Shown: in pieces, positions 22,337 through 25,403 of the stretch
How positions within the stretch are numbered: position 1 is the stretch's first letter
Layout: the number at the start of each line of letters is the position of its first letter
From: a virus
Reading direction: 5' to 3' (one strand)
Virus record (IMG/VR): IMGVR_UViG_3300031251_000068
Location: 1-36,199 of that record
Length of the DNA: 36,199 nucleotides
Program-made: the position numbers and the translations under genes
The notes under the pieces: generated by a model
The model's input: only the letters and a program-made list of their open reading frames with translations
Told to the model about the DNA's origin: nothing
The model's database searches: none

Positions 22337-22933
22337 ATGCAAGATGACCCTAAGCTTCAGCAACTAGCTGTGTTCACCCCTGAGCAAGAGCTTAACCCTG
22401 GCTATGGTAATCATTATCTATTCTTTGTGGGTCGTGATGACGTGCATGGTATTCTATTACACCTTATCAAACAAGAAAAACTAGGCTTTGACTTCAATCA
22501 ATTCGGCTTTGATGATCAAGAGTTGAATGACGCTATCTTAGCGTTGCTTAATAATCCTACTGTATCCGTCCAAGCCACACTTGATAAGTCTCAGGCAGGT
22601 GGAGTCCACGAAAGAGCTATACTATCTGCTGATGAAGCGAATGACCCTACTTTTTTGAACTCTTTTGCTATCGGTGAAAGTGCTACACACCAGATCAGCC
22701 ATACCAAAGGCGGTATCTTTGTTGGCCAGGGTATCGGCTACGAGGGCTCAACTAACTGGTCTTCTAGCGGTGAGGGTGTCGGCATTAGTTTGAAAGCTGA
22801 CGTTAATGCACCTAAAGGCTTCAAGGCTCAGAATAATACCTTGCTTGTGTCTACCAGTCCTGTCTTTATTTCACGTTTCCAGCGTCAGTTACTTGCCGAG
22901 CACAGGATTGCTCAAGGTCAGAAGACCGCTTAA
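22337..22933 (+). CDS. Phospholipase D-like protein with degenerate HKD motif
   Basis: This 198-residue protein has the single-domain phospholipase D/Nuc layout: 'SHTKGGIFVGQGIGYEGSTN' around 121-140, with His122, Lys124 and the Gly-Ser-x-Asn element. Such proteins are nucleases or lipid phosphodiesterases that act as dimers. The Asp expected five residues after Lys is Val129, so activity may be altered. A conserved tail 'KGFKAQNNTLLVSTSPVFIS' matches the family. It starts three bases after the endolysin stop, pointing to a lysis or host-DNA role. Confidence 0.75.
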   Translation: MQDDPKLQQLAVFTPEQELNPGYGNHYLFFVGRDDVHGILLHLIKQEKLGFDFNQFGFDDQELNDAILALLNNPTVSVQATLDKSQAGGVHERAILSADEANDPTFLNSFAIGESATHQISHTKGGIFVGQGIGYEGSTNWSSSGEGVGISLKADVNAPKGFKAQNNTLLVSTSPVFISRFQRQLLAEHRIAQGQKTA

Positions 22934-23037: not shown

Positions 23038-23059
23038 ATACTCACCACTGGTGTATAAT
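23033..23059 (+). promoter_or_regulatory. Promoter with palindromic operator candidate
   Basis: TATAAT at 23054-23059 is preceded by a weak TTGCTA. The palindrome CACCA-C-TGGTG (23043-23053) abuts the -10 box where a repressor would block polymerase. The 13 bases 23044-23056 recur with one change at 25361-25373. Confidence 0.55.
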
Positions 23060-23570: not shown

Positions 23571-23576
23571 TATAAT
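23571..23576 (+). promoter_or_regulatory. -10 box of 23613 gene
   Basis: A perfect TATAAT lies in the 93-base gap before the next small gene, with no clear -35. The start would be near 23583, and AGAAAGG precedes the ATG. It is the third of four similar boxes in this stretch. Confidence 0.45.
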
Positions 23577-23612: not shown

Positions 23613-23861
23613 ATGGCCGACGACAATAACCCTAATCCTGGTGGCCTTACACCAGGCATGACACCTGACGGCTCAACAGTTGGCCCACAGCCAACGCCAC
23701 CAGGAACAGACGTAAATGAGTCACCGCCAAAAGACCCAGTAGTTGATACTGGCCCAAAGGCAGGCCCGAACTCTGAGGGCAAAGTCCCTCAAGAGGGTGA
23801 CGGTAATTCAACCCCACCTGCACCTGCAGAGGGTGTTCAAACAACTGACGATCTAAAATAG
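23613..23861 (+). CDS. Proline/glycine-rich disordered protein with GVQT tail
   Basis: This 82-residue protein is almost entirely Pro, Gly, Asp, Asn and Thr and should be unfolded. It ends 'PPAPAEGVQTTDDLK', matching the tail of the preceding product. ATG 23613 follows AGAAAGG at about nine bases; an upstream in-frame start at 23565 overlaps the -10 box and would precede the transcript. It may be a linker or virion-associated peptide, but there is no direct evidence. Confidence 0.6.
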   Translation: MADDNNPNPGGLTPGMTPDGSTVGPQPTPPGTDVNESPPKDPVVDTGPKAGPNSEGKVPQEGDGNSTPPAPAEGVQTTDDLK

Positions 23862-23863
23862 TA

Positions 23864-23893
23864 TTGACAACTATGGCATAAGTGTGCTATAAT
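23864..23893 (+). promoter_or_regulatory. Strongest promoter in genome, drives small RNA
   Basis: A consensus TTGACA (23864-23869), 18 bases and TATAAT (23888-23893), with TGC before the -10 making it an extended site. Both hexamers are perfect. Transcription should begin near 23900 and meet a terminator after about 95 bases. Confidence 0.8.
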
Positions 23894-23899
23894 ACTATT

Positions 23900-23993
23900 A
23901 TGGTCAGATAACGTACCATGAGCAAGTCGGAACAGTCCTACTCATGAGAGCGTAAAACCAAAACAAAACCCCTTGAATTATCAGGGGGTTTTT
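23900..23993 (+). ncRNA. Small RNA of about 95 nt, no known family
   Basis: A strong promoter and a strong terminator enclose only this stretch, so a small RNA is the simplest reading. ATGGT (23900-23904) can pair with ACCAT (23915-23919), and CATGAG (23917-23922) with CTCATG (23941-23946). The two stems share CAT and exclude each other. It lacks tRNA features. It also contains tiny frames: ATG GTC AGA TAA at 23900, a nine-residue one at 23918-23947 and ATG AGA GCG TAA at 23944. It may act as antisense RNA, decoy or minigene transcript. Confidence 0.6.
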
Positions 23994-23995
23994 CT
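23965..23995 (+). terminator. Intrinsic terminator of small RNA
   Basis: AAAACCCC-TTGA pairs with TCA-GGGG around an ATTA loop, with one bulged T, followed by TTTTT at 989-993. It ends the small RNA and would also insulate the next gene. Confidence 0.85.
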
Positions 23996-24024
23996 TATGC
24001 TTAGGCCATAAGGATAAAATCAAG

Positions 24025-24393
24025 ATGGAAAAGCATAGATCGCATCACCTCTTATTTCCTAAAAGACTATGGCGAGCACAGAAGCCCACCAGAGAGTTAA
24101 GTGGGCAGTTCTGGCTTAAAGTACCGCTTTATGATGACGCTCATGCTGAGCTTCACGCTAATGTTAGCTCTGTACCTGTGCCTGACTGGAATATTGGAGA
24201 AATCATTTTAAGACAATTTGAGCCAGTTGTAGGCGATTATTTCAAGTCAGTGGACAATCTACTACAAACGATTGATAGGGTGAGCCAGAACCATAGAAGC
24301 GACCCTGTGCAGCGAAATCTAGGCCAGCTTATGATAATGGCTATAGATTTACAAAGGCCATACGTCGTTGATGGATTGGTTATATCGGAATAG
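24025..24393 (+). CDS. Conserved-looking hypothetical with His-rich N terminus
   Basis: The 122-residue product opens 'RSHHLLFPKRLWRAQKPTRE' and later has 'HAELHANVSSVPVPD', regularly spaced histidines that might bind metal or form a nuclease site. The C-terminal half is helical. AAGGA precedes the ATG. It sits just after the small RNA terminator and starts the next gene block. I recognise no named family. Confidence 0.6.
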   Translation: MEKHRSHHLLFPKRLWRAQKPTRELSGQFWLKVPLYDDAHAELHANVSSVPVPDWNIGEIILRQFEPVVGDYFKSVDNLLQTIDRVSQNHRSDPVQRNLGQLMIMAIDLQRPYVVDGLVISE

Positions 24394-24397
24394 TGAT

Positions 24398-24805
24398 ATG
24401 GAACAAGAGCCTGGCCATAAAGAATTACCACCTATGTCATGGAGTTGTGAACACTGTGGCACAGAATACGAGATAGACGACAATACCACTAATCTATACG
24501 TTGACATGAAACACGACGGTAAGTATACCTTTGTTCAGTTTGACTGTAAGGCCGAAGATTGTGCTGAAGTTACCAAATACTTTACTGACCTGGATAGCAC
24601 TAACGAAATAGGGGTGAGGGTGACGAACATCTATCCTATGTACGACATTCCTAAGTGGGTCAAGCAAGGTTGGAAAGAGTTACAGCACAGCAAGGAAGTT
24701 GAGCAACCAACAATAGAACTATCTTCGGTTGATGCAGATTGTTTGGTTTGGGACGCTATGATTGCTTACCTAGAACCAGACGATTTTAAGAAAGACCACC
24801 TGTAA
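24398..24805 (+). CDS. Zinc-ribbon protein, function unknown
   Basis: From ATG 24398 the protein has 135 residues, with 'CEHCGTEYEID' early and 'CKAEDC' about 35 residues later, together one likely zinc site. GGAA lies eight bases upstream. An in-frame ATG at 24371 inside the previous gene is possible. Its 3' end overlaps the minus-strand gene tail to tail by 20 bases. The acidic remainder gives no further clue. Confidence 0.6.
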   Translation: MEQEPGHKELPPMSWSCEHCGTEYEIDDNTTNLYVDMKHDGKYTFVQFDCKAEDCAEVTKYFTDLDSTNEIGVRVTNIYPMYDIPKWVKQGWKELQHSKEVEQPTIELSSVDADCLVWDAMIAYLEPDDFKKDHL

Positions 24806-25085
24806 GTTTTCTGATAATAAAACTGAACAGCTTTTGAGGATTAGCACCGTCTTGTCTAGCTTCGCTGGCAGCTCGGTGTATTTGATCAAAGGGTAAGTTA
24901 TAAAATCTTGCTGCAAACCATTTTTTGTAATTTGGGTCTATAAGGTCTGAGTAATCGGTCAGCAGTCTATCTACGATTACTGAGCTAGTGGTTTTCTCCC
25001 TATTGGCTATAGGGTTAAAACTTTTATCCAATGGGCTATTGGCTATAGGGTCTTTTTGATTATTGATGATGTCTGAAACTTGCAT
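24786..25085 (-). CDS. Only minus-strand gene, helical hypothetical
   Basis: This 99-residue protein starts after AAAGGTGG, read on the minus strand from about 25094, six bases before ATG 25085. A longer frame to 25253 runs through origin-like repeats and lacks support. The N-terminal third holds a doubled PIAN peptide encoded by a 16-bp DNA repeat. The C-terminal part 'KKWFAARFYNLPFDQIH' followed by a helix looks like a DNA- or protein-binding module. Placed beside an origin-like region, it may be a replication or early-control protein, but this is inference. Confidence 0.65.
   Translation of the reverse strand: MQVSDIINNQKDPIANSPLDKSFNPIANREKTTSSVIVDRLLTDYSDLIDPNYKKWFAARFYNLPFDQIHRAASEARQDGANPQKLFSFIIRKLTGGLS
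25000..25051. repeat. 16-bp direct repeat inside minus-strand gene
   Basis: CTATTGGCTATAGGGT occurs at 25000-25015 and again at 25036-25051, a 36-base period, giving a doubled Pro-Ile-Ala-Asn in the protein. It may be an iteron embedded in coding DNA or a small internal duplication. Confidence 0.7.
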
Positions 25086-25403
25086 TGCGTTGCCACCTTT
25101 TGTTATACTTAATAGTGATTGAGACAAAAGCCTCTTATGACCTCTAGTTTTCGCTAGGGGTCGTTTAATTTTTGCTTGCAAGCTTTCTGTTTGCGATTGA
25201 GACAAACAGGTCATTACATAATAGGCTCGCACAAGCACTTTGCCAAGCCCCACATATAGCGTATGAAACTACTTATGCACAACTAGTATCTGTTAAAAGT
25301 TGTCCACATGTGTGCAAGTCAACGCTAGATTATGATATATAAAAGTATTGACAAGTATATACCACAGGTGTATTGTTGAGGGGTAAACTAAACGAAAGGT
25401 ATC
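25086..25403. other. Origin-like and divergent control region
   Basis: This 318-base gap separates the minus-strand gene from the next plus operon. It holds a 12-base direct repeat GATTGAGACAAA (25117-25128 and 25195-25206) and a hairpin of GACCTCTAG with CTAGGGGTC (25139-25162). It also has two DnaA-box-like sites, TTATGCACA (25273-25281) and TTGTCCACA (25300-25308), and an AT-rich stretch at 25327-25361. Together these resemble a compact replication origin that uses host DnaA. Confidence 0.45.
25348..25376 (+). promoter_or_regulatory. Promoter of 25404 operon with shared operator
   Basis: TTGACA (25348-25353), 17 bases and TATTGT (25371-25376). The spacer end carries ACCACAGGTGTAT (25361-25373), nearly identical to the element at 23044-23056. 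Transcription would start near 25383, before the AAAGG of the next gene. Confidence 0.6.

Follow-up and report, generated by a model that had tools for sequence, protein, structure and literature searches.

A putative small RNA gene with a consensus promoter and an intrinsic terminator near the late-module end of a viral genome

The window analysed here is the whole 36,199-base IMG/VR virus record IMGVR_UViG_3300031251_000068 (positions 1 to 36,199), from a phage of soil or water. Its gene content comprises terminase, portal, capsid and tail genes, a CHAP lysin, a RecT-like protein and a YqaJ-type exonuclease. G047, the longest of the records that share its terminase, is syntenic with it across the window end and start (36199/1). 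This suggests that both ends probably adjoin each other in the genome, and that the window probably represents a complete genome in circularly permuted form. Host assignment was tried through two genes and rejected: the PLD-like gene is scattered across many phyla, and terminase matches in small genomes are weak. The late module ends with the CHAP gene (21672), the PLD-like gene (22337) and three small genes, and early-looking genes start at 25.7 kb. Between them lies the unit 23864-23995, whose features and immediate neighbours are the following:

23613..23861, plus strand: small upstream gene of 82 aa, preceded by a separate TATAAT at 23571
23857..23899, no strand: promoter region containing a perfect inverted repeat of 9 bp (AATAGTATT/AATACTATT)
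23864..23893, plus strand: sigma-70-type promoter, TTGACA-18-TATAAT with extended -10 (sequence scan and shuffles)
23900..23995, plus strand: predicted small RNA of about 95 nt (the -10 gives the presumed start, the terminator the presumed end)
23901..23960, plus strand: 5' domain, a single extended stem-loop (fold prediction)
23965..23997, plus strand: intrinsic terminator, stem and U tract (sequence and fold)
24025..24393, plus strand: downstream gene of 122 aa, function unknown (homologues)
24398..24805, plus strand: second downstream gene of 135 aa, function unknown (ORF)

The upstream gene 23613..23861 is the last of three small units, each of them preceded by an exact TATAAT. In total, exact TATAAT occurs four times within 834 bp (window positions 23054, 23275, 23571 and 23888), always shortly 5´ of a small unit, and a comparable cluster of four was found in 4 of 100 shuffles. 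The PLD-like gene (22337-22933) encodes 198 aa with a phospholipase-D-like motif, H-x-K...GSTNW, recognized by eye; searches of Pfam and PHROG with this protein gave no match. Copies with 41-68% identity are present in viral contigs and in genomes from many phyla.

The promoter consists of TTGACA (23864-23869), an 18-bp spacer and TATAAT (23888-23893), the latter extended by TG at 23885-23886. The first-pass annotation of this DNA had described both hexamers as consensus, the -10 as extended and the whole as the strongest promoter seen, and all of this was borne out: the hexamers match at 12/12 positions, and no other site with at least 11/12 consensus bases exists on either strand of the 36-kb window. 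Its word "perfect" suits the hexamers, but not the spacer, which is 18 bp instead of the optimal 17. In 100 dinucleotide shuffles of the window, 12/12 sites appeared at 0.04 per shuffle and none of them carried the TG. When a terminator was demanded as well, none of the 100 shuffles contained a promoter-terminator unit of such strength. A small RNA with promoter and terminator of its own, as initially proposed, is what the sequence most readily suggests, and the arrangement is not one of chance. Within the 9-bp inverted repeat, an inner palindrome, TATGGCA-N6-TGCTATA at 23872-23891, also overlaps the promoter. It has no other mismatch-free occurrence and its loose matches are at chance level. 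We consider the palindromes a possible operator.

Transcription from this promoter would start near 23900 and run into a terminator with a 12-bp stem and a 4-nt loop (23965-23992) followed by a T-rich tail, in agreement with the earlier estimate of about 95 bases between promoter and strong terminator. The predicted RNA as a whole is more stable than 200 of 200 shuffles (z -3.9), mostly owing to the terminator; the 5´ domain taken alone is moderately structured, with z -2.0 against shuffles. Its pairings are UGGU/ACCA, ACGU/GCGU, CAUGAG/CUCAUG and GGA/UCC, and the loop is ACAG. A leader peptide was considered and rejected: there is a 9-codon ORF at 23918-23947, it lacks a Shine-Dalgarno sequence, and the RNA holds no other ORF of note.

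Two overlapping stems had been noticed earlier and both are present, namely ATGGT (23900-23904) with ACCAT (23915-23919), and CATGAG (23917-23922) with CTCATG (23941-23946), sharing three bases. The suggestion that they exclude each other as in switches did not survive folding. If the ATGGT/ACCAT stem is forced, the fold reaches -23.6 kcal/mol compared with the minimum of -29.6, a gap of 6 kcal/mol, and the pairing probability is below 1e-4. In the dominant fold, ATGGT finds its partner in ACCA at 23957-23960 and closes the main stem. The alternative stem is thus predicted to be negligible at equilibrium, and it may form only transiently during transcription. Neither of the two stems touches the terminator, and fold analysis revealed no upstream RNA segment competing with the terminator stem. 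A riboswitch or attenuator with two comparable exclusive structures, one of them controlling the terminator, does not fit these energies and this uncontested terminator.

The terminator stem is followed by a T-rich tail on the opposite strand too, so it is probably bidirectional. On the minus strand it would face the leftward gene 24786-25253. Together with the palindromes that overlap the promoter, this gives some ground to a reading in which the RNA has no function at all: a strong promoter would merely stand beside a bidirectional terminator at the end of a module, as a transcriptional boundary or an operator. We regard this as very improbable, because a 12/12 extended promoter pointing into a terminator some 70 nt further on would be unlikely without selection for the transcript, and the 5´ domain is moderately structured.

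The downstream genes require a more careful consideration. Gene 24025 is real, since its homologues align from Met1, and it starts 30 nt past the terminator. Between the terminator and this start there is no promoter of at least 9/12; the best site, at 23973, reaches 8/12. Unless the 8/12 site works, the expression of gene 24025 therefore calls for a certain amount of read-through. The promoter could then serve 24025-24805 and the terminator would set or regulate read-through, by factor-dependent antitermination or, in a simpler variant, by low-level leak, with the short RNA as a by-product, much like the one from the lambda late promoter. A leader or attenuator of this kind, in either variant, seems to us rather unlikely, yet it is the main alternative, with a real gene so close behind the terminator and so poorly provided with a promoter. 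Several observations speak against it. The terminator stem is dominant, without an antiterminator pairing or any upstream competitor. The operon comprises just two genes and is then met by the convergent leftward gene. Homologues of gene 24025 in other records lie within operons that have no such leader. Finally, in the two records described below, G013 and G023, a separate promoter-like sequence accompanies the gene past the terminator, most clearly in G013.

The RNA had been called undescribed, and database searches agree. Against Rfam 15, no family exceeded the gathering threshold, and a relaxed threshold yielded only sub-threshold matches, mostly on the terminator. We looked for relatives with blastn, nhmmer, degenerate patterns and a covariance model built on the single window RNA; the last detected no relative, and copies of the RNA or its hairpin were found neither in IMG/VR (pattern scans) nor in GenBank phages, plasmids and about 49-50 related viral records. 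Scans through gene 24025, the tail protein and RecT led to no relatives either. Five matches to a 17-mer of the loop were rejected as homologues, as they are accompanied by neither hairpin nor promoter; four of the five sit in one common repeated context, apparently protein-coding. Relatives of the window terminase are 43-85% identical, and the records in which they occur all stop short of the RNA locus (G047 covers the equivalent of about 26.5 kb, across the window end and start, to about 13 kb), so the absence of conserved copies is weak evidence.

Comparison of gene neighbourhoods was more instructive. Two of the records with the PLD-like gene, G013 and G023, have gene 24025 in common with the window as well. 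Each of them carries a short RNA unit composed of promoter, hairpin and terminator, which is encoded on the other strand than the PLD-like gene:

L014 7384-7300, minus strand: short RNA unit of G013
L026 6715-6620, minus strand: short RNA unit of G023

A 21-nt block, TGAGTTATTTGGCGTTTCCAA, is identical between the two units and its flanks have diverged. When folded, the block is a hairpin that leaves its loop sequence accessible. GGAAACGC, which is complementary to this loop, is found four times per record, where 0.33 (G013) and 0.23 (G023) copies are expected. One copy lies opposite the RNA itself and the other three at translation starts, and start regions represent less than 8% of the two strands. 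The first target is the ribosome-binding site of an ORF of 59/63 aa, hydrophobic and membrane-like. The second is the leader of the rightward operon; in G013, GGAAACGC there forms the loop of the leader's own hairpin. The third target gene is not the same in G013 and G023. Calculated duplexes amount to -16.5 to -20.5 kcal/mol and pairing covers 8-14 bp, the longest continuous stretch being about 14 bp including G-U. Recognized targets rank first among all start regions of each record, and the sum of the top three is equalled by no shuffled 17-mer. Alternatively, GGAAACGC might be a DNA-binding site repeated in both orientations. The two phages provide computational evidence that a promoter-hairpin-terminator unit can regulate genes of the same phage by antisense pairing. 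This leads to a testable hypothesis, in which one phage RNA silences several phage genes by masking their translation starts.

Similar arrangements were observed at other places. Directly 5´ of the rightward operon of both G013 and G023 lies a second promoter, TTGACAGCATAAG..., and a conserved terminator comes about 45 nt later (L014 8088-8170 and L026 7384-7460, plus strand). In G006 (L007 5825-5980), a strong promoter with extended -10, a stretch of about 70 nt and then a strong terminator are located 1.2 kb past the PLD-like gene and upstream of a tyrosine-recombinase-like gene; the sequence is unrelated to that of the window RNA.

Layout and neighbourhood support likening the window unit to that of G013 and G023. 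Homology of the RNAs was not supported by alignment (P 0.15-0.5). With similar layouts and no demonstrable kinship of sequence, the comparison is one of analogy. Target prediction, which the first-pass annotation had suggested, did not identify any phage mRNA: in the searches used for G013 and G023, no target of the window RNA within the window phage stood above shuffles or chance (P 0.4-0.8). The word-count form of these searches gives a weak negative, as it likewise fails to single out the complementarity in G013. Should the window RNA act on mRNAs by pairing, its targets are more likely to be those of the host, because none was found in the phage.

The same result would suit an RNA that acts as a decoy and binds a host protein or RNA, for example as a mimic of a CRISPR repeat in the manner of Racr or as a sponge of a host small RNA. 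The layout of Racr RNAs is compatible with the window unit (PMC10651486). Against a decoy, Rfam, including the CRISPR direct-repeat families of the library, returned no match to it. We consider such a decoy improbable.

We suggest instead that the unit is an independent phage small RNA gene acting in trans by base pairing, with host mRNAs as probable targets; our confidence in this is evenly poised. A strong promoter of host type would produce a structured domain of about 65 nt ending in an intrinsic terminator, and the loop and unpaired segments of the RNA would then base-pair with mRNAs, probably those of the host. One trait expected of phage trans-acting small RNAs is present, namely a non-coding stretch flanked by a dedicated promoter and an intrinsic terminator. 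The sole 12/12 extended promoter, the terminator after about 95 nt, the stable fold and the lack of a notable ORF support this reading, and an exact TATAAT for each of the neighbouring small units fits single-unit transcription in the region. Against it stand the lack of a detectable relative, of a significant phage target and of a good promoter for 24025-24805. The anatomy is read from the sequence, and it is mainly the analogy with G013 and G023 from which we infer transcription, action in trans and target.

One could go further and imagine that phages with this gene neighbourhood harbor, near the late-module end, fast-evolving RNAs of one class, built of promoter, hairpin and terminator, each a loop-pairing hub for several translation starts. 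The window RNA would be a member with a different loop, and the G013/G023 RNA the first with a phage regulon readable from sequence. Such a generalization is speculative and we think it unlikely. Beyond model phages, the known phage small RNAs are few, and those from uncultivated phages are very few indeed. If the window RNA is made, it is the product of the strongest-looking promoter of the phage and gives direct access to the way in which the phage adjusts its host or itself.

Several known systems resemble the unit to different degrees. Racr RNA anti-CRISPRs are short, strongly expressed phage RNAs encoded just past a promoter, and they mimic a CRISPR repeat (PMC10651486). The window RNA is likewise short, strongly promoted and furnished with a hairpin, but comparison with the Rfam CRISPR direct-repeat families revealed no known CRISPR repeat that resembles it. 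The put RNA of HK022, of about 70 nt with two stem-loops and a triplex, acts on terminators further downstream (PMC9378689). Common to both is a structured RNA of about 70 nt right after a strong promoter; the window RNA, however, is one extended stem-loop set directly against the terminator, which does not fit the definition of put. The late promoter of lambda gives rise to a short terminated RNA and is subject to Q antitermination. It shares with the window a strong promoter, a short terminated RNA and genes past the terminator. In the window, by contrast, two genes and then a convergent gene follow, with no recognized Q-like protein and no late structural genes after them. Lambda OOP RNA, too, terminates at its own terminator. 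It belongs with PreS, also of lambda, and with P22 sar to the phage base-pairing small RNAs that have a promoter of their own (reviewed in PMC12197685). The likeness lies in a short phage RNA, a dedicated promoter and the base-pairing action that would be expected for the window RNA. OOP and sar are complementary to the transcript of an adjacent gene, whereas no gene lies opposite the window RNA; PreS is Hfq-dependent and has a host target. OOP, sar and PreS are the nearest known kind, and the window RNA would be a so far orphan addition to it.
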